NCBI GenBank assembly: GCA_027622555.1 | Contig: JAQBYJ010000038.1 | Coordinates: 1 to 44,521, forward strand | DNA length: 44,521 bases | Origin: Verrucomicrobiota bacterium | GTDB lineage: Bacteria; Verrucomicrobiota; Verrucomicrobiia; Opitutales; UBA2995 | Reading direction: 5' to 3' | Shown here: piece by piece, positions 7,490-22,700 of the stretch | Numbering within the stretch: position 1 is the first letter of the stretch | Layout of the letters: each line of letters begins with the position of its first letter | The notes under the pieces: generated by a model | The model's database searches: none | What the model saw: only the letters and a program-made list of their open reading frames with translations | Told to the model about the DNA's origin: nothing | Program-made: the position numbers and the translations under genes

Positions 7490-8443
7490 GTGTCCCAAAA
7501 ATTCCCCATCCGGTTTACTGGCTTAAAAGAGACTGCTTTTCCTGCGAAGCCGCTCTTCCTTGCCGTAGGCATGTTTGACGGTGTTCATTTGGGGCATCAG
7601 GCAGTTATTGAAACTGCGGTTCAGTCTGCGCAGGCGGCAAATGGCGTGAGTGGCGTATTGACATTTTGGCCACACGCCAGTCGCTTATTCAATCCGAGTG
7701 ATCCGGTGAAGATGATCATGACTCCGGAAATAAAAGCGGGGGCTCTTGGTGCCCACGATATTGAATACATGATTCAGCAGCCGTTTAATAATGAATTCTC
7801 CGCAATAGAGGCTAAAGATTTTATTGCTCACCTTAAGCATCAATTACCCCATCTTCAATCGATTCACGTTGGATCCAATTGGCGCTTCGGAAATAAGAGG
7901 CTTGGAGACATTGCGATGTTGGTTGAGTTGGGACGAGCAGCAGGTGTGCATGTGATCAATGTCGAAAGGGTTTTTTATGACGGGGAAGCCATTAGCAGCA
8001 CACGTATTCGAAAGCATCTTGCTTTAGGCGAAATGGAACTCGCAAATGCTTTGTTGGGTGATGTCTATTTTTCGATCGGACCGGTGGTGCCAGGAAAGAA
8101 TTTAGGTTCTAAAATTGGTTTTCCAACATTGAATCTGCCTTGGTCTTGCGAATTGAATCCTCCCTATGGTGTATACTTTGTCGATGTTAAGGGAAAAAAG
8201 AATGGCAAAACTACTTTGGTAAAAGCTGTAGCCAATTTTGGAATTCGTCCGACTGTTGAGGAAACCAATGAGCCGGTTCTTGAAATCCATGTTCTAGAAG
8301 ACTTCCCGTTTATAGAGGGGGACGTACTGAAAGTACGTTGGTTTCACTTCCTACGTCCAGAGATGAAATTTGATAGCATAGACTCACTGAAAGCACAGAT
8401 AGGACGTGATGTTAGTGAGGCCCTAAGATACTGGGATCTTTAA
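7490..8443 (+). CDS. ribF: Bifunctional riboflavin kinase / FMN adenylyltransferase
   Basis: This enzyme makes FMN and then FAD from riboflavin. The N-terminal FMN adenylyltransferase domain shows LAVGMFDGVHLGHQ (nucleotidyl-transfer HxGH-type motif) and VGSNWRFGNKRLGD. The ISSTRIRKHLALGEME segment links to the C-terminal flavokinase domain (GKNLGSKIGFPTLNL, then PYGVYFVDV). It has 317 aa. The start is a GTG at 7490, because no ATG lies upstream of the conserved region and the first in-frame ATG falls inside the AVGMFDG motif. It is the last gene of the operon and meets the leftward PDZ gene tail-to-tail with a 30-base gap and no obvious hairpin. Confidence 0.95.
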   Translation: MSQKFPIRFTGLKETAFPAKPLFLAVGMFDGVHLGHQAVIETAVQSAQAANGVSGVLTFWPHASRLFNPSDPVKMIMTPEIKAGALGAHDIEYMIQQPFNNEFSAIEAKDFIAHLKHQLPHLQSIHVGSNWRFGNKRLGDIAMLVELGRAAGVHVINVERVFYDGEAISSTRIRKHLALGEMELANALLGDVYFSIGPVVPGKNLGSKIGFPTLNLPWSCELNPPYGVYFVDVKGKKNGKTTLVKAVANFGIRPTVEETNEPVLEIHVLEDFPFIEGDVLKVRWFHFLRPEMKFDSIDSLKAQIGRDVSEALRYWDL

Positions 8444-8473: not shown

Positions 8474-9454
8474 TCAGCTTTCCTTCTCCTTGCTTCCGTA
8501 ATTTGGGTGGCTTAAGTGAGCTTCATCTTCACCACTGTTAATAATGATGCGGATATTTTCTTTCTTCACGTCTTCCAGGTTTTTCCAATTAAATTCCTTC
8601 GGCTCGTTTAGCTGCTTGAGGATTCCTTGCACGTTCTCAGGGAGGTCTTTCATTACGTCATCGACGGGGTAGTCACCTTCGTAAAGGACCTTGGTATCTG
8701 TTGAATCTTTCTCGCTGACGACATAATGATTGTTGCCATCGATTGTTTCCATGCTGGCAATTAAGCTACCTTTGTTAATGGAAACTTTTTGCGGACCACG
8801 GCCTACCGAAGTTACACGCTTACTCCCATCCTCTTCTTCACGTTCAATTATGATTTCTGGAATAAATTGCAGGGCTTTGTTTCCCATTTCGGCTGCACGT
8901 TCTGAAAACTCTTCCATGCGCTCCTGAAAGTCTTCCATATCAAAGTTCAGATTCCATTCACCGAATGAGGGAAAAGGTGGTTTTTGATTAGGTTTTGGAA
9001 AAGGAAAATCCCGAGTCCAACCTTGTTGTTCATGCACTTCCTTCTCTCCAAGTTCGACCTTGAGAATTAATTTCTTACTTTTTCGGAGAACTTCAACCTT
9101 CACACTATCTCCTGCTTCTTTGGATCGAATGAGCGTGCTCAGTTGCTCCTGGTTGATGATTATCTGGTCGTCTACTTTCAATAAGATATCGTATTGCTGA
9201 AGATCCGCTTTTGCCGCTCCAGAATTTTCGGCAACATGGTCGATGGTAAGACCCACGCCGTCAGGTATATCTATGTGGTTTCTTAGCGCTTTACTTACAC
9301 GGCTCGTCTCCACGCCAAGAAAAGTAACCATTTTTATTTCTTCTTTAGAGGCATCGACTTTCAGTTCGACCGATTGAGCGTATGAATTATTGAGGATCAT
9401 AAAAAGGCAGCTCAAACTTAGGAAAGCGTGTAAAAGTAATTTGTGGTTTTTCAT
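8474..9454 (-). CDS. Secreted PDZ-domain protein
   Basis: This is a 326-residue exported protein with one PDZ domain. A signal peptide is visible (KNH, then LLLHAFLSLSCLFMIL, ending near SYAQ at residues 24-27). The PDZ domain covers about 45-140: FLGVETS, then GVGLTIDHVAENSGAAKADLQ, YDILLKVDDQII and SVKVEVLRKSKKLILKV. The second half has no recognised domain; it is charged, with a Pro/Phe-rich patch near 150-165. No protease triad is present, so this is not an HtrA enzyme. It follows the sigma/anti-sigma pair with a 20-base gap and is probably co-transcribed, which suggests an envelope function under ECF control. Confidence 0.8.
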   Translation of the reverse strand: MKNHKLLLHAFLSLSCLFMILNNSYAQSVELKVDASKEEIKMVTFLGVETSRVSKALRNHIDIPDGVGLTIDHVAENSGAAKADLQQYDILLKVDDQIIINQEQLSTLIRSKEAGDSVKVEVLRKSKKLILKVELGEKEVHEQQGWTRDFPFPKPNQKPPFPSFGEWNLNFDMEDFQERMEEFSERAAEMGNKALQFIPEIIIEREEEDGSKRVTSVGRGPQKVSINKGSLIASMETIDGNNHYVVSEKDSTDTKVLYEGDYPVDDVMKDLPENVQGILKQLNEPKEFNWKNLEDVKKENIRIIINSGEDEAHLSHPNYGSKEKES

Positions 9455-9474
9455 ATAATGTCTTCTGGTTGAAG

Positions 9475-9960
9475 TTACAACAGGGTGACCGGAACAAAAA
9501 GAATCTCTTCTCGCGGAATCTCCATTGTGAATACACTGCCATCGTTTTTATCCAACATGGTCAAAGTATCGATAAACTGGTAGCGAAGCTTGCGGACCGG
9601 ATCATGTCCGTCCGTGAAAACGATCCCATCGTCAAAGGCTTTCATCAGGCGTTGTTCCGCCTCCAGAGGGATATATGAATTCTTGGCAACTGGCTGGGAA
9701 ATTTGAGTTGATTCTGACCGAGATGCGGCATTGCCAGAATCTACGTCGTTGGATGTCCTCGAAATTGAAATAGCAAAAACAAAGATCAAGCAGGCTGCAG
9801 TGGCTAAAGCTATCCCAGGCCAAAACCGTACTAAAGATATTGTATGGGTCGATTGCGGTTCTTCCAGAGCGCTTTCTATTTTTGTCTTAAGTGCTTCGCT
9901 GGGAGCAGCAGGTTTTAAAAGACCTAACTCCTTTTCAATTTCTTCGTAGAATCTTTTCAT
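9475..9960 (-). CDS. Single-pass membrane protein, probable anti-sigma factor
   Basis: The 161-residue protein has a cytoplasm-facing N-terminal part of about 45 residues (KRFYEEIEKELGLL), one transmembrane helix at about 48-68 (GIALATAACLIFVFAISI) and an extracytoplasmic C-terminal part. Its ATG overlaps the stop of the ECF sigma gene (ATGA), so translation is probably coupled. Position and topology fit an anti-sigma factor. The zinc-binding H..C..C pattern of ZAS-type anti-sigmas is absent, so the role rests on context alone. Confidence 0.6.
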   Translation of the reverse strand: MKRFYEEIEKELGLLKPAAPSEALKTKIESALEEPQSTHTISLVRFWPGIALATAACLIFVFAISISRTSNDVDSGNAASRSESTQISQPVAKNSYIPLEAEQRLMKAFDDGIVFTDGHDPVRKLRYQFIDTLTMLDKNDGSVFTMEIPREEILFVPVTLL

Positions 9961-10460
9961 ATCAGTGATGGAGTAATTTCCTTTTTTAAATGTTCCAAGG
10001 CGTAGCGGTAGCGGGATGCAGCCGTGTTGAGCGAGACATCCAGGATGTTTGCAATTTCCTGAAATGTAAGTTCTCCCCAGATTTTGAGTACAACAACCTC
10101 CTGTTGGTCTTGGGAAAGTTGCTGAATGGCATCTTCGAGTAAGGTATTTCTTTCCTGAACTTCCAAACGTCTTTCAAATAGTTCCAATTCGCTTTCCCTA
10201 TCTTCGAAAACTTTGTGTTCCCGGATTTTTCTACGATTGTTTGACCGAGCATGATCGATAGCCGTTGTTCTGACTGCCGCGTAGAAAAGGGATTTATTGA
10301 TGGAGCCATTATGGCCATAGGTTTTCCAGATTTTAATAAATGCTTCTTGAACTATATCTTCGGCTTCTGAAAGGAATCCTGTTTGCTGCCTGGCGAAAAG
10401 CAGGAGCGAAGGACCCCATTCCTTGAAGTAGTGTTGCCACGTTGCGGATTCTGCAGCCAT
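9957..10460 (-). CDS. RNA polymerase ECF sigma factor
   Basis: This is a sigma-70-family extracytoplasmic-function factor of 167 residues. Region 2 is at about 15-80 (AEDIVQEAFIKIWK, then AVRTTAIDHARSNNRRK). Region 4 is at about 110-160, with a helix-turn-helix (LTFQEIANILDVSLNTAASR, about 131-150). The family directs polymerase to stress or envelope genes and is held by a linked membrane anti-sigma. Gene order on the minus strand is sigma, anti-sigma, PDZ protein. A 13-base palindrome at 10482-10494 lies just upstream of the start. A bidirectional terminator at 10513-10545 separates it from the next operon. Confidence 0.92.
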   Translation of the reverse strand: MAAESATWQHYFKEWGPSLLLFARQQTGFLSEAEDIVQEAFIKIWKTYGHNGSINKSLFYAAVRTTAIDHARSNNRRKIREHKVFEDRESELELFERRLEVQERNTLLEDAIQQLSQDQQEVVVLKIWGELTFQEIANILDVSLNTAASRYRYALEHLKKEITPSLI

Positions 10461-10494: not shown

Positions 10495-10512
10495 CCAATT
10501 TGTCTGGATTAC

Positions 10513-10545
10513 AAAAAAAAGTCCTCATGAAGAGGACTTTTTTTT
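10513..10545. terminator. Bidirectional intrinsic terminator
   Basis: Eight A residues (10513-10520), a GTCCTC/GAGGAC stem with a 5-base loop, then eight T residues (10538-10545). It is symmetric and so works in both directions. On the minus strand it ends the DUF3570-ApbE-TlpA-DUF4266 operon and isolates it from the sigma-factor operon. Confidence 0.85.
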
Positions 10546-10580
10546 GAAAGGGATGTTTCCTGGAAAAGTTTTATGGCTGT

Positions 10581-10802
10581 TTAGTTGCAGCCGCAACCTC
10601 CGCCGCCGATTCCTGCTCCGCCGTGAGAGGCTTCTCTCGTATAATTGACGTGTTCTGCCATGGTAATGTCCAGAGGATCACGTTCGCTCATCATTGAATA
10701 CTGTGCCAGGTTTCCTTTTTCCCAAGGTTCGACAGATTCACAGCCCCAGAAGCCCATGCCCATAAGTCCTAAGATCGAAATTTTTATCAGATTCGTTTTC
10801 AT
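10581..10802 (-). CDS. DUF4266 small lipoprotein with Gly-rich CxC tail
   Basis: This is a 73-residue DUF4266 family lipoprotein of unknown function. A lipoprotein signal ends at Cys21 (GMGFWGC, with the acylated Cys followed by ES). The family core is clear: EPWEKGNLAQ, then RDPLDITMAEHV and REASHGGAG. The C-terminus is GIGGGGCGCN, with Cys70 and Cys72 forming a CxC pair. It is the last gene of a four-gene unit, starting 2 bases after the TlpA-like gene. From this I infer that the exposed CxC tail is a substrate of that thioredoxin, a metal site, or an attachment site. It would be anchored in the outer membrane or the periplasmic face. Confidence 0.85.
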   Translation of the reverse strand: MKTNLIKISILGLMGMGFWGCESVEPWEKGNLAQYSMMSERDPLDITMAEHVNYTREASHGGAGIGGGGCGCN

Positions 10803-10804
10803 GA

Positions 10805-11296
10805 TTATTCTGCTAGTAAGGATTTAATTTCTTCGCGGTAGGCGTCGATGGTTTTCTTGCCTCCGTATCCTTTGTGGATGGAACGGATGATTCCCTGTTT
10901 ATCCACCATTATTGAAGTTGGCATGACTTCAATTTCTGCGGCGCGAACGAATTGTTTCTCTGCATCAAAAACGAGGGGAAATGTGACGGCGGATTTGTCA
11001 GCAAATGTTTTGTAGGCTTTTTCCGTGCTATCGACACTGACAGCCAAAATAACAAATCCCGCATCTTTCATTTCCTTATAGAGCTCGTCCATGGCGGGAA
11101 AGGACGCCTTACACGGGGCACACCAGGATGCCCAGAAATCTATCAGAACTACTTTGCCTTCGAGGTCGGGCAGTTCACCGGATAATCCGAAGGTTGTGAG
11201 ATCGGGTAAGGTATCCGATTCAGCGAGTTTTGCCTGAACGCCTGCGCTGAAAAGAGAGAAGCCAATGAGGGCAATAATTGGGAGTTTAAATTCCAT
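10805..11296 (-). CDS. TlpA-like periplasmic thioredoxin
   Basis: This is an exported thiol-disulfide oxidoreductase of the TlpA/ResA/AhpC-TSA type, 163 residues. A signal peptide (EFKLPIIALIGFSLFSAGVQA) is followed by the thioredoxin fold with active site FWASWCAPCK (Cys59, Cys62), a helix containing DELYKEMKDAGF, the strand VILAVSVDS, and the cis-proline loop VMPTSIMVD. I chose the ATG at 11296, which opens directly on the signal sequence; an in-frame start at 11320 would add 8 residues. The start overlaps the ApbE stop by 11 bases and the DUF4266 gene follows after 2 bases, so expression is tightly linked. The likely partner is the CxC lipoprotein or another cassette product. Confidence 0.9.
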   Translation of the reverse strand: MEFKLPIIALIGFSLFSAGVQAKLAESDTLPDLTTFGLSGELPDLEGKVVLIDFWASWCAPCKASFPAMDELYKEMKDAGFVILAVSVDSTEKAYKTFADKSAVTFPLVFDAEKQFVRAAEIEVMPTSIMVDKQGIIRSIHKGYGGKKTIDAYREEIKSLLAE

Positions 11297-12278
11297 TAAC
11301 CATGTATTGATGTATCGCATATGAATCTAGACGTTTGAATTCGGTATGTATTGTGGCTTCAGCCCCAAAAAATGTATTAATGAGTTCCAGTCCTTCAACT
11401 TCGCCTAGCAAACAAGCGGCGGTAGCAAGGATTCCGGCTTCCGTGCAAGTTCGTGCTACGACTGTTGTATGACGTACTTTATTGGCGATTGGGTAGCCTT
11501 TTCGATGATCGATCATGTGGCCGTAACGTTTTCCATCTAACTCAAAGAATCGCCGGTAATCCCCCGAGCTCGCTACACATAGGTCAGTTAAGGCCAGGCT
11601 ACCCCAGCAGGTGCCGGGTTTGCCAGGATCCTCGATTCCAACATGCCAGTGGGTATACTTTGGAGGCTTCCCGAGAGCAGCAATATCGCCTCCGAAATTT
11701 ATAAGAACATCGGTTATTCCATAATCACGGGCGATTAGTGAAACCCTATCGACTGCGTATTCTTTACCAATGCCGCCAAGGTCCAGGCCCATACCTGTTT
11801 GGGTGAGTCGGATTTTTCCAGGAGCTCTTTCAACCTTGTCCCAGCCAACAAGAGCCTTGGCTGTTTCGATTTCTTCTTTATCGGGGATTCGTGGTGTTTC
11901 GGCTTTGTAATCCCAAAGTTTCATAACCGGTAAACTCGTTGGGTCGAAGAGCCCTTGGGTAATGAAATGAAATTGATTGCACAGGTCGAAGAGAGCTTCT
12001 GCCTCCAAATCAATGTCCACCCATTCTTTACCTGCAGCTCGATTGATTTTGCTGATCAAGCTATCTTCCTGGTAGCGGGAGTAAGTGTGTTCGAATGCTT
12101 TAACCCAATGAAGGGCTGTCTCTTTAAATTGTGTGGCTTGTTTTGGGTCGTTGCTTCGAAACTGAATCTCGCAGGGGCAACCCATTGCTTTGAAGCGCAG
12201 CTTGAACAATCCTTTTTCAAGATTGTCCGTTGAAATACTCTCAATCCCAAGATTGGGCTTCGTTTGTTTTAAAACCAC
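11286..12278 (-). CDS. ApbE-like FAD:protein FMN transferase (atypical)
   Basis: ApbE enzymes attach FMN from FAD to a Thr or Ser of target proteins. The fold motifs are present in 330 residues: MGCPCEIQF (32-40), DLGGIGKEYAVDR (166-178), LINFGGDIAALG (192-203), and GHMIDHRKGYPI (253-264), equivalent to the usual H-I-I-D-P-R-T-G. Two things are odd. There is no signal peptide or lipobox, although many Gram-negative ApbEs are exported. In addition, the usual A-D-A-L-x-T metal motif reads AGILAT (281-286), with Gly282 in place of the Asp. Its start overlaps the DUF3570 stop by 10 bases. Family membership is sure. Whether it acts as a flavin transferase in the cytoplasm, or has another activity, is open. 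Confidence 0.88.
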   Translation of the reverse strand: MVLKQTKPNLGIESISTDNLEKGLFKLRFKAMGCPCEIQFRSNDPKQATQFKETALHWVKAFEHTYSRYQEDSLISKINRAAGKEWVDIDLEAEALFDLCNQFHFITQGLFDPTSLPVMKLWDYKAETPRIPDKEEIETAKALVGWDKVERAPGKIRLTQTGMGLDLGGIGKEYAVDRVSLIARDYGITDVLINFGGDIAALGKPPKYTHWHVGIEDPGKPGTCWGSLALTDLCVASSGDYRRFFELDGKRYGHMIDHRKGYPIANKVRHTTVVARTCTEAGILATAACLLGEVEGLELINTFFGAEATIHTEFKRLDSYAIHQYMVNGI

Positions 12279-13435
12279 CAGCGTCCTCCTATGGTAATTA
12301 TGTCCGCATCACTATAAGCACTTTGGTGGGTTATACCATCCAGGCCTTTCATTTCGTAGCGGTTGTATTTCACATTAAACTCAAGGTTATCCAGGGCGAA
12401 CCAGACCAGCTTTGCGCCATAGGTTACCGTCTCCATTTTTGACAGTCTGTGATCCGATGAATAATAAGGACCTGTTCCGCTGAGACCGCGTTTTGGAATG
12501 ATCGAAGTTTGATCAAGATCGTAATGATAGAATTGGGCGGCCGATTGTTTATAGTAACGGTAATTGGGCCGAAAAATCACTTTGTCCGACAACTTTTGAA
12601 ACCACTCTACCGAAACGGTATGAGAATCAATCCCGGCATCGTCCGAAAAATATCTGTAGGATGTTTGCGTGCTGGCTTTGAGTTTTTCGAAGTCTCGCAA
12701 GACTTCGGTAAAGAAAATCCATTTCTCACGAGAGCGGGGACGATTTTCTGGAAACCGAATCGGGAGAAAAAAGTCTGGTAGAATTTCAACGCTTTTGAGG
12801 ACGATTTTGTAAGGGTCTGCCAGGTAACCGTTCTCTTGACCGTAGGCAATATTCGCTCTGACGACTGTGGATGGATCAAGAACTTGAGAGACTCCAAAAA
12901 ATAAATCGTGTGAGGTCTTGATTTCCGGGTCTCTCAGAGTGGGTGCGGTGAGCTCGTCGTCCAACAGCGAGTATCCCACCTGGAGGGTCGTATTGTTTTT
13001 GTTGAGTTCTCGCTTGTAGCTAGCAGTACCTCCTTGGGAAATGTAGTCGCTTTCATCACTATAGCTGAGTTCGAAAGTAAAAGCGTTATCGCCCTTCTTG
13101 TGCTCTATATTAACTACTGCGGATTTACGTCTATCCTCCAGTTCCTCCAGGGGGACCTGATCCGGATCACTCTCTTGAATGGGTTCCCCGGTTGGGGTCG
13201 AACCGGTGATAGTGTCTACCAAGCCCACAACGCTGACAGTCGTGTTTACTCCAAGGTCCTTTTCTACCCGCAAGTAATGAGCTTCTACCCTAATGCGGTC
13301 ATTGTCTTCTTGATATTCCTCGTATTTGCGTGTGATTGAATCTTCTCCCAGGATTAGTTTAGGAGCGCTGAAGAGTAAATATAACGCCAATAAGAGGCAA
13401 TGGAACTGATTCTTTAAATACGATTTAGCTGACAT
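12269..13435 (-). CDS. DUF3570 outer-membrane barrel protein
   Basis: This 388-residue DUF3570 family protein is first in a four-gene operon. A signal peptide is visible (HCLLLALYLLFSAPKLILG). The rest alternates short amphipathic strands (for example RVEAHYLRVEKDLGVNTTVS, TTLQVGYSLLDD, LEFNVKYNRYEM) and ends in GGRWWF. The terminal Phe is typical of BAM-inserted outer-membrane barrels. Near the N-terminus, VDTITGSTPTG (73-83) resembles the ApbE flavinylation motif D-x-x-[ST]-G-A-T, with Thr80 as the candidate acceptor. This fits the ApbE gene immediately downstream. The function of the family is unknown to me; a flavin-bearing barrel is my inference. Confidence 0.85.
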   Translation of the reverse strand: MSAKSYLKNQFHCLLLALYLLFSAPKLILGEDSITRKYEEYQEDNDRIRVEAHYLRVEKDLGVNTTVSVVGLVDTITGSTPTGEPIQESDPDQVPLEELEDRRKSAVVNIEHKKGDNAFTFELSYSDESDYISQGGTASYKRELNKNNTTLQVGYSLLDDELTAPTLRDPEIKTSHDLFFGVSQVLDPSTVVRANIAYGQENGYLADPYKIVLKSVEILPDFFLPIRFPENRPRSREKWIFFTEVLRDFEKLKASTQTSYRYFSDDAGIDSHTVSVEWFQKLSDKVIFRPNYRYYKQSAAQFYHYDLDQTSIIPKRGLSGTGPYYSSDHRLSKMETVTYGAKLVWFALDNLEFNVKYNRYEMKGLDGITHQSAYSDADIITIGGRWWF

Positions 13436-13476: not shown

Positions 13477-13505
13477 ATATTATCCATTTGAATGGCGGGA
13501 ATCAA
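13477..13505 (-). promoter_or_regulatory. Putative promoter of the DUF3570-ApbE-TlpA-DUF4266 operon
   Basis: On the minus strand TTGATT (13505-13500) is followed after exactly 17 bases by TAATAT (13482-13477), giving a 5' leader of about 35 bases before the DUF3570 ATG at 13435. It is a good sigma-70 match, predicted by eye. Confidence 0.5.
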
Positions 13506-19868: not shown

Positions 19869-22700
19869 ATGGATTTGCTGATCGGCATCGTTTTTCTGGC
19901 TCTTCTCATCACCTTACTGGTGAAGCAGGGGACAAGTAACGGTGAGATCGATAAACTCAAACAACGACTAAGTAAGCTGGAGCTAGAGTTGGATGATTTT
20001 CGACGGCCACATCTGAAGACTACCAAGTCCGATGAACAGACTGAGTCTTCACCGGTCGCCGCACAGCCCATCCCAAAAACAGTAAGCGCGTCTAACCTTC
20101 CTGAAACCAGCGTTGCACAAGCTTCCTATCCTCAATCACCGAAAGTAAGTGGGCCACCGCCTATTCCAAAACCGAAGCGTACGGGCTCATTGGATTTCCT
20201 TCGAAGTATCGGCTTGTGGCCACCCGTCCGGAAAAAGGGATCCGCGGAGTTGGTTCTTATGCAATGGTGGATGCCTCGAATCGGTGGCATCTTGGCAATA
20301 CTGACCATTATCTTTATTGCCGTCTATGTCGCCCAGGGGACTGCACCGTGGGTTAAGTTTTTGGAAATGCTGGTAGCTTCCTTCGGAGTCTTTGGATTGG
20401 GGCTGTTTTTCAGTAAAAAGCGTCCTGATTTTGGGAATGTGCTAATGGCTACCGGATTATCGATGATCTATATCTCGAGCGTAGCGGGTTACGCGGTCGG
20501 GCCGGTCAAAGTCGTCGATAGTCCGCTCCTGGGAGCGTTGATGCAGGTGGCGGCTTTGATTTTAAATTTCGGAATGGGTACCTGGCGGAAGGATAGGGGT
20601 ATGCTCATTCTCGCACTAGTATTTGGCTACATTTCCTCTTTGTTTGCAGCCCTTGAGGGTTTCCGTGAAGCCGCTCTTTTATCGTCACTCCTGGTGTATA
20701 TTGCAGGGATCATCTCCTACCGGCGGATTGGAGGACTCACCATCGCCAGTTTATCTCTCGCCGGGGTCTATTTGCCGTTGGCTGGATTTGTAGGAATTAA
20801 ATACCTGAAGGACGCTGCCGTGTATCCCGAATTTTGGTCCGTCGTCGTTTTTCTGGTTCTCACCGTTTCGATCCTCCCCGCCTGTAAGTTATATTTCAAG
20901 GACCCCACCTTCGTTGATTCTCGCTGGAATCGCTTGTATCAGTCAGTAAATACCAGTTTGGCGATAGGCTTAGGGTATCTGTTTGTCCATGAGTTTTACA
21001 GAAATGAGTTAACCGAGTTTTACGGCGTATTTGCCGTTCTATTTGTGGCATGGTCTATCGTTTGGTTTCTACGAGATTCAAAAGGAATAGAGTATCATTT
21101 GTTTTTTCTCAAAGGATCTGCCCTGACGTCCTTATGGTTTATTAATTATTATTCCGGCGATCTTCGTTGGATGGCTTTAGGGATTCAGGTAATTATTTTG
21201 GCGGCTTCAGTGCATCGATCGAAAAGTATTTGGGTAGAAATAATTACGGGGATCACCTGGTTGGTTTCCTTTTTTTATTTCATCTTACCCGGCTCATTTA
21301 ATGAGGTTTGGAGTTTTATTTGGTTTATTCGAGGAGCATACATCCTGATCTCTGTTGCCGGATTGGGCTACTTGATGGCCTACGTGTCGGGTAAACAAAT
21401 CTTGCGAAGGGTTATTTATGCTATCCCTGCTATAATACTCGCTGCGACCGCCACTGAGTTTGCGGCAGATTCAAACGTCATGGGATTCAATGATTCCGGT
21501 GCCATCGCATTGATGGCTTTGCTGGTATTGTCTGTTTCGTTGTTGAGGGTAGTCAATAGTTGGGTACCGCTTGTGGCTGGTGGCTTGGTTTTCATTGCGG
21601 GTCACCTAAGCTTTTGGGCTGATCCTGACGACAAATACTCTTTGGCTTTGGTCTTGCTTGTATCCGCCGTTTGTTTGTTTGGACTGCTGAAAGCCAAGAT
21701 CGCAAAGCAACACATTGTTGAGACGTTACTCCATGGATTGTGGGTTGTTTCGGTGCTGTATTTTTTCAGCAACTTTCAACTTGAATCTTGGTATTCTGTA
21801 CTGATCGCCCTGTTTTCGATACTATTGTTTGCAGGTGGTTATTCACCGCTGAAACGATTGCCGGAGGTGTGTGCATTCCCGCTTCTGTTTCTACTGCTTT
21901 ATCCGCCACGCGGAGATGTGCCAGGCGTATTATTATGTTTCTTCGTTTTGATGTTAGGAGCACTCGCAAATGTGGCGGTGGCGTACCCACGCTATCAGCA
22001 GTTCGTATATTTCCTCAAGCGCGGAGATTTATTGTTGTGGCTGCTAAACGCCCTGTTCATTTTCTGGGCCGGGTGGACTTTCTCAACTCATGTTAGCTTG
22101 GCTAACGAATTACTGCTTTGGACCGTCCTGGGAGCGATGTTTTATTTCCTTTGGTACTGGAGGTTGATGTGGGTTTCTTTTGTGGGGGCTTTATGTTGTG
22201 CCACGGTACCGGTATACCGGATCACTCATCTGTGGCTCGATCCCATTGTCGATGGATTGCTCGGCGGCGCTCCGTGGGCCTGGCAGGTTTTGTTGGCAGG
22301 ATTGATTTCTGTGGTTCTGTGGCTGTGCATCGGTGGTCTGCCCCGGATTCGACCACATGGAAAGTTAACAATACAGAGCGAACAGCTCCTGGCCTGGGTT
22401 AGTGCTTCAATGGGCTATCTGGTTTATGTCGCAACCTTTTCCTATCCTCTATTAAACTGGGATCGACTGTATACCCCTTGTTTGGCCGCTTTCAGTATCG
22501 GGCTCATTGTGCTGGGTATCATTCTAAAAAGTAAGCCCTATCGGTTGGTGGCCATGCTCACGTTCCTCGTAGCTCTTTTTCGCCTCTTTACCTACGATAT
22601 CAGGGAAACACTATTTCGTATCATCGCCTTTGCGGTATTAACCGTATTTATGACGGTCATCGGTTTTCTCTACCAAAGGTATTCGTCTAGAATCGAATAG
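19869..22700 (+). CDS. DUF2339 polytopic membrane protein
   Basis: This 943-residue integral membrane protein is of the DUF2339 type. It has an N-terminal helix (LLIGIVFLALLITLLV), a short charged coiled coil (IDKLKQRLSKLELELDDF) and a Pro/Ser-rich cytoplasmic linker to about residue 100. A long series of hydrophobic helices, probably more than 20, fills the rest (first ones near ILAILTIIFIAVYVAQG and VGPVKVVDS). Family function is not established. It follows the broken MuiA gene by 18 bases, and no terminator is visible between them. Confidence 0.85.
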   Translation: MDLLIGIVFLALLITLLVKQGTSNGEIDKLKQRLSKLELELDDFRRPHLKTTKSDEQTESSPVAAQPIPKTVSASNLPETSVAQASYPQSPKVSGPPPIPKPKRTGSLDFLRSIGLWPPVRKKGSAELVLMQWWMPRIGGILAILTIIFIAVYVAQGTAPWVKFLEMLVASFGVFGLGLFFSKKRPDFGNVLMATGLSMIYISSVAGYAVGPVKVVDSPLLGALMQVAALILNFGMGTWRKDRGMLILALVFGYISSLFAALEGFREAALLSSLLVYIAGIISYRRIGGLTIASLSLAGVYLPLAGFVGIKYLKDAAVYPEFWSVVVFLVLTVSILPACKLYFKDPTFVDSRWNRLYQSVNTSLAIGLGYLFVHEFYRNELTEFYGVFAVLFVAWSIVWFLRDSKGIEYHLFFLKGSALTSLWFINYYSGDLRWMALGIQVIILAASVHRSKSIWVEIITGITWLVSFFYFILPGSFNEVWSFIWFIRGAYILISVAGLGYLMAYVSGKQILRRVIYAIPAIILAATATEFAADSNVMGFNDSGAIALMALLVLSVSLLRVVNSWVPLVAGGLVFIAGHLSFWADPDDKYSLALVLLVSAVCLFGLLKAKIAKQHIVETLLHGLWVVSVLYFFSNFQLESWYSVLIALFSILLFAGGYSPLKRLPEVCAFPLLFLLLYPPRGDVPGVLLCFFVLMLGALANVAVAYPRYQQFVYFLKRGDLLLWLLNALFIFWAGWTFSTHVSLANELLLWTVLGAMFYFLWYWRLMWVSFVGALCCATVPVYRITHLWLDPIVDGLLGGAPWAWQVLLAGLISVVLWLCIGGLPRIRPHGKLTIQSEQLLAWVSASMGYLVYVATFSYPLLNWDRLYTPCLAAFSIGLIVLGIILKSKPYRLVAMLTFLVALFRLFTYDIRETLFRIIAFAVLTVFMTVIGFLYQRYSSRIE

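Follow-up and report, generated by a model that had tools for sequence, protein, structure and literature searches.

A DUF3570-ApbE-TlpA-DUF4266 cassette of Verrucomicrobiota with a signal-less, rearranged ApbE: a candidate outer-membrane flavin/thiol electron carrier

The stretch of DNA analyzed here (the window) comprises 44,521 nucleotides of contig JAQBYJ010000038.1, part of a 6.0 Mb draft genome of an Opitutales-like member of the Verrucomicrobiota, and carries on its minus strand a compact four-gene cassette. In order of reading, this consists of a DUF3570 gene (12269..13435; PF12094, 4e-64); a gene for an ApbE-family flavin mononucleotide (FMN) transferase of a kind we call Gly-type (11286..12278; PF02424, 3.5e-75; GTG start); a TlpA/ResA-like exported thioredoxin (10805..11320; AhpC-TSA/Redoxin, 8.5e-23; probable start the ATG at 11296); a DUF4266 lipoprotein gene (10581..10802; PF14086, 1.3e-18); and lastly an intrinsic terminator (10512..10546, also minus strand) with a 15-bp stem, a GTCCTC core, and a U-run. 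All four Pfam matches, from a profile search of the cassette open reading frames (ORFs), lie well over the cut-off, and both the ORF positions and the families agree with what an earlier note on this DNA had described. The tight spacing and strong terminator claimed there also hold: the DUF3570 and ApbE genes share 10 bases, ApbE shares 11 with TlpA on the 11296 start or 35 on the 11320 start, only 2 bases part TlpA from DUF4266, and the terminator hairpin (-21.4 kcal/mol, z -5.07) was equaled in 0/200 shuffles. Our scan reported no promoter-like site at 13477-13505, where the earlier note had placed one, and the 3 such sites found in the region compare with 6.9 in shuffles, so that a cassette promoter is not confirmed.

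Gene sets of this kind have been known since 2021. Meheust et al. (2021, PMC8238504) reported DsbD clusters containing ApbE, DUF3570, thioredoxin, and DUF4266, as well as 316 clusters with the same four genes but no DsbD, and showed that in C. luteolum the ApbE flavinylates DUF3570 at two [ST]GA[ST] sites; their survey demanded a signal peptide on at least one target gene. The central idea of the earlier note, an extracytoplasmic flavin/thiol redox system, is thus broadly right but not new, and its remark that two of the families lack an established function no longer holds for DUF3570. A literature search found no other paper naming DUF3570 or DUF4266, and the text of PMC8238504 makes no mention of a beta-barrel or porin. 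As far as the literature shows, what is new below is the ApbE clade and its residue exchange, the barrel model, the co-occurrence counts, and an associated family of Ig-repeat proteins.

In a sample of 388 Verrucomicrobiota genomes, DUF3570 occurs in 42, DUF4266 in 42, and both in 41 of the 43 genomes with either, an arrangement far beyond chance; the genome-neighborhood survey that the earlier note had proposed as a check therefore speaks decisively for its idea. The nearest relatives of the window cassette are found in Opitutales metagenome-assembled genomes (DUF3570 identity 71% and 61%). Among the 41 cassettes of this type (type I) examined, 35 carry all four genes in one order; using our own handles for loci (L), genomes (G), and contigs (C), the exceptions are L049 and L079 without TlpA, L061 and L082 without ApbE, L077 with DUF3570 and ApbE only, and L053, which is cut by a contig end. 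A second, divergent type (L084, L085) has the order DUF4266, DUF3570, thioredoxin, ApbE, and Hymenobacter plasmids carry a related gene set in yet another order; the only cassettes found in plasmid records were those of Vibrio (type I) and Hymenobacter (type II). Two loci appear damaged: the DUF3570 of L068 (G121:C1:1015153-1016333) has an in-frame TAG and is split into several frame pieces, reflecting either a pseudogene or a sequencing error, while the other cassette genes there look intact; and the ApbE of Hymenobacter volaticus (L088:3987-5083) lies in two pieces in overlapping frames, next to a DUF3570 that is intact.

The ApbE of the cassette is unusual in two respects, its active site and its lack of an export signal, both of which escaped the earlier note when it described a flavin-transferase-like enzyme, a description that family match and fold otherwise support. 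Also absent from that note are the single variant flavin motif of DUF3570, its predicted extracellular position, and the secreted protein family that tracks the cassette, all taken up below. An AlphaFold2 model (predicted local distance difference test, pLDDT, 92.8) superimposes on Treponema pallidum TP0796 (4ig1) with Z 39.0 and a root-mean-square deviation of 1.9 over 308 residues, and on FmnB with Z 37.6. Gly282 (11433..11435, minus strand) stands in place of the metal-binding Asp (E. coli D283, FmnB D301; PMC8906456, PMC4767422), which in FmnB coordinates Mg (PMC8906456), and Glu173 (11760..11762, minus strand) adjoins the catalytic Lys172. In a column-by-column alignment, Gly282 is paired with Glu173 in 41/41 Gly-type proteins, and Asp282 with Gly173 in 68/68 Asp-type proteins. 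Gly is found at the metal-Asp position in 40/40 ApbEs of type-I cassettes (one of them carried by a Vibrio plasmid), as against Asp in 64 of 71 unlinked ApbE rows; the only two unlinked Gly rows both belong to G284, whose cassette (L061) is one of those without ApbE, and are L150, on another contig, and the divergent L141, some 8 kb from the cassette, which has both residue changes. A quickly computed maximum-likelihood tree places all 42 Gly-type rows on one side of one branch (Shimodaira-Hasegawa-like approximate likelihood-ratio test, SH-aLRT, 98), and on this tree the Gly/Glu exchange is a single event, conserved since. No Gly-type protein departs from Ser238, His254, Lys172, Arg243, or Asp198 (Ser238 and His254 in 41/41), and the window enzyme looks active because it retains the catalytic Ser238, His254, Lys172, Arg243, and Thr286. 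Residues 173 and 282 each stand at a helix start in the model (helices 171-185 and 278-291), and the acidic metal ligand may have shifted from 282 to 173; joint exchange in every member is as compensation would predict. Two other notions were rejected: that the protein is a pseudoenzyme, since the other catalytic residues are invariant, and that a Cys four residues before Gly282 marks a replacement ligand, since many Asp-type ApbEs share it.

Signal peptides were sought with a simple h-region score, allowing any start codon, at a cut-off of 2.0. None of the 42 Gly-type ApbEs reached it (best score 1.82), compared with 53 of 68 Asp-type ApbEs, and with 34 of 43 DUF3570 (40 at 1.8), 40 of 41 TlpA, and 39 of 42 DUF4266 proteins among the cassette partners. 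The window ApbE has no h-region, and a hidden signal is not possible because the frame stays open for only about 10 codons before the GTG start. Judged by these sequences, the ApbE appears to be cytoplasmic while its partners are exported. We do not regard a missing signal as unique to the Gly-type clade, since Asp-type ApbEs beside PepSY/DUF2271 also seem to be without one.

The earlier note's view of DUF3570 as an outer-membrane barrel is well supported by the PF12094 match together with i) a signal peptide at about residues 1-30; ii) a model of the mature protein (pLDDT 95.4, predicted template modeling score 0.89) with 16 barrel strands and one loop hairpin, an even number of strands; iii) full-length structural alignment with outer-membrane barrels such as PelB (9h80, Z 21.3) and OmpC/OmpF models (Z 16-17); and iv) an aromatic C-terminus, RWWF. 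A sequence comparison of DUF3570 with the PDB gave only chance matches to PrnA (E 0.05). The flavinylation-type motif D-T-I-T-G-S-T-P occupies mature residues 44-51 (13193..13216, minus strand), with T50 as the putative acceptor (13196-13198, minus strand). Across a 40-row alignment each type-I protein has one copy of the motif, which reads [DN]-x-I-[STA(V)]-G-[AST]-[ST]-P; G48 and P51 never vary, the acceptor position holds T in 33/40 and S in 7/40, position -1 is A in 34, S in 5, and T in 1, and position -3 is S in 21, A in 11, T in 6, and V in 2. Rather than two [ST]GA[ST] motifs the window protein has one variant, TGST; its relatives mostly have a single motif with A, S, or T at the variable places, the close ones TGST or TGTT. 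We set aside the idea that this degeneracy signals lost flavinylation, as the acceptor S/T, the G, and the P are kept in all 40 rows. By analogy with the C. luteolum protein, DUF3570 is probably flavinylated here as well.

In the model the flavin residue closes strand 3, and the motif is predicted to lie in the 3-4 loop at the extracellular mouth, because the aromatic end of the C-terminal strand is periplasmic, and a count of strands backward from there places that loop outside. The loops after odd strands vary in length (11-130 residues for the flavin loop), the turns after even strands keep to 2-4 residues, and 29 of the 39 near-invariant residues fall in the outer half of the barrel. Seven loci (L005-L007, L022, L030, L032, L033) have low-complexity inserts rich in Pro, Ala, Thr, and Ser, up to about 115 residues long, directly after the flavin motif.

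The thiol partners are much as the earlier note had them, an exported thioredoxin and a lipoprotein with a terminal CxC. TlpA has a signal peptide and a CAPC (11111-11122) within WASWCAPC; DUF4266 has a lipobox FWGC (Cys21) and a Gly-rich tail ending in CGCN, the lipobox Cys and the terminal CxC each being kept in 42/42 rows. No DsbD was found among the flanking genes scanned, and the one DsbD of the genome lies unlinked on another contig.

Gene content, synteny, the ApbE clade, the residue exchange, and the missing ApbE signal peptide can be read directly from the sequences. Building on them, we lean toward the view that the cassette encodes an outer-membrane flavin/thiol electron carrier with FMN on Thr50 of DUF3570. 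The ApbE would attach FMN to Thr50, most likely in the cytoplasm, before Sec export and while the precursor is still unfolded; the 16-stranded barrel would then be inserted into the outer membrane with the FMN predicted at its extracellular mouth; TlpA would be reduced by the cell's single DsbD; TlpA and the DUF4266 CGC tail may pass periplasmic electrons on to the FMN, giving a putative path DsbD, TlpA, DUF4266, FMN; and the FMN could deliver them to an external acceptor, the direction of flow and the acceptor being conjectural. The timing is likewise inferred, along two lines: an extracellular loop could be reached by a cytoplasmic ApbE only before barrel insertion, and a motif of seven residues can serve ApbE as substrate (PMC12052999), which makes modification of an unfolded precursor before Sec export the simplest solution.

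We wish to set against this proposal that it presupposes Sec export of a polypeptide with FMN attached; that a cytoplasmic enzyme with a secreted barrel as substrate is unusual; that signal-less Asp-type ApbEs also sit beside other secreted substrates; that the exchange, being one event on the tree, yields a perfect correlation which does not amount to many independent tests; that the window TGST departs from [ST]GA[ST]; that only two residues part strands 5 and 6, a weak point in the topology; and that Ala at the corresponding Asp of FmnB greatly reduces or abolishes activity (PMC8906456). Some of these points lend themselves to other readings. The Gly-type ApbE, having lost an Asp whose removal cripples FmnB (PMC8906456), might no longer be an FMN transferase, serving instead in flavin adenine dinucleotide (FAD) binding, as an FAD pyrophosphatase, or in a structural role, with DUF3570 not flavinylated, as the degenerate TGST/TGTT of the window and its close relatives could suggest; yet the remaining catalytic positions vary little or not at all among 41 members, Glu173 is present wherever Asp282 has become Gly, and the acceptor S/T, G, and P of DUF3570 are never lost, so that we consider this quite improbable. 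A periplasmic flavin loop, which would make the barrel a periplasmic-side flavoprotein rather than an extracellular electron outlet, is rather unlikely: it would follow if strands 87-98 and 101-114, only two residues apart, were one bulged strand, flipping the parity and bringing the site nearer to its thiol partners, but the merged strand would measure 28 residues versus the usual 10-19, the strand number would be odd, the long variable loop would face the periplasm, and the protein aligns over its full length, from both ends, with even-stranded porins.

Gly-rich tails with a CxC are capable of metal binding, and the DUF4266 CGC might hold Cu or Fe and take no part in a thiol electron relay, the cassette then serving surface metal reduction or acquisition. 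A CxxC thioredoxin in the operon in nearly all cases is at odds with this, as is the failure to recognize any metal transporter among the recurrent neighbors looked at, whose annotation is not exhaustive. In its favor, 25 published DUF3570 clusters contain a VIT1 iron transporter (PMC8238504). We regard the metal reading as unlikely but somewhat less so than a periplasmic loop.

About half of the type-I loci, though not the window, have an Ig-repeat secreted protein immediately downstream of DUF4266, with an N-terminus LL.LLQRTP.(V/L)R followed some 40 residues on by [DNHQ]-x-x-[ASTV]-G-A-T. When a profile of this N-terminal region was searched against the same 388 genomes, excluding weak matches that start past model position 40 as generic Ig repeats, matches including the N-terminus were found in 25 genomes, all 25 cassette-positive. 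In family f3 every cassette-positive genome has an Ig-repeat protein, and among the matches listed, which break off at weak E-values, there is none in cassette-negative f3 genomes, even within genera g8 and g10, which also have positives. Several copies lie away from the cassette, as in the window's own genome (G000:C86:13444-13896, G000:C86:15007-15489, and G000:C9:71217-71669; L197, L198), whose three motifs are NTVTGAT, QTVTGAT, and NSVTGAT. The C86 pair adjoins a di-heme cytochrome c peroxidase-like gene. Directly downstream of the TlpA-less cassette of L049 (5828-10000), the place of the GAT protein at other loci is taken by a protein with a CxxCH cytochrome c-type N-terminus followed by Ig and cadherin-like repeats.

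These Ig-repeat proteins may be further ApbE substrates, or their GAT may be part of a signal-peptidase site; we give the two similar weight. The latter, in which an extended signal peptide would be cut between AGA and T and the proteins would not be flavoproteins but either clients of the barrel in secretion or just inherited along with the cassette, is plausible though short of probable: what precedes GAT resembles the h- and c-regions of a signal peptide, and [ASTV]-G-A conforms to the -3/-1 rule. Against it, the G at -2 and the T at +1 are invariant (GAT is kept in 38/39 proteins) though not needed by the peptidase; the D/N/H/Q at -6 has the flavinylation spacing; and at -3 the residue is identical to the one in the same-locus DUF3570 in 16 of 28 pairs versus 10.4 in shuffles (p 0.006, uncorrected for relatedness), both genomes with V in DUF3570 having V in the Ig-repeat motif and the window's genome T in both. 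More tentatively still, the cytoplasmic Gly/Glu-type ApbE might flavinylate both DUF3570 and the LLQRTP...[AST]-G-A-T proteins before secretion, the two jointly forming a flavin-based extracellular electron-transfer surface in Verrucomicrobiota.

Beyond the cassette, a RibF (riboflavin kinase/FAD synthetase) gene lies at window 7490-8443, about 2.1 kb past the cassette end, and in the relative L004 RibF (8970-9932) is directly past the cassette end and convergent, either of which may be coincidence. At window 9475-10460 an ECF-type sigma factor gene overlaps by 4 bases a 161-aa gene without a Pfam match, anti-sigma-like by position, and a PDZ protein follows at 8474-9454. A 943-aa ORF without any Pfam match (window 19869-22700) stands directly after a DUF4139 protein.

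If the Gly-type ApbE is active, the paired Asp-to-Gly and Gly-to-Glu exchange offers a clean test of metal binding and substrate choice in FMN transferases. If flavinylation precedes export, then Sec can carry FMN-bearing chains, and the places in genomes where ApbE should be sought change, given the signal peptide that the published survey wanted on at least one target gene. A surface-facing barrel flavin would be a heme-free electron route across the outer membrane, and the Ig-repeat family supplies a small number of candidate new substrates that can be tested directly.

Porin-cytochrome conduits of the MtrCAB type use an outer-membrane barrel to carry electrons outward. The window cassette would share barrel electron export with them, but with flavin and thiols instead of hemes, and it contains no multiheme cytochrome; the CxxCH protein of L049 recalls the flavin/cytochrome exchange of PMC8238504. 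With E. coli ApbE, T. pallidum TP0796 (Ftp), and Listeria FmnB the window ApbE has in common the fold and the catalytic Ser, His, Lys, and Thr, and differs in the replacement of the metal Asp by Gly, the Glu gained beside the catalytic Lys, and the absence of an export signal. The cytoplasmic ApbE of Klebsiella likewise has no signal peptide, but its substrate is cytoplasmic (PMC12052999), whereas that of the window cassette is exported. Closest are the DsbD/DUF3570 clusters of PMC8238504, which share the four families in one operon, DUF3570 as substrate, and the terminal CxC of DUF4266, and many of which lack DsbD as the window cassette does; the differences lie in a single variant motif instead of two [ST]GA[ST] motifs, an ApbE without a signal peptide, the exchange of Asp/Gly for Gly/Glu, and an unlinked DsbD. 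We conclude that the cassette is a distinct, apparently undescribed variant of this system, combining a signal-less ApbE of swapped metal site, a single-site DUF3570 with a predicted surface flavin, and co-distributed candidate substrates.

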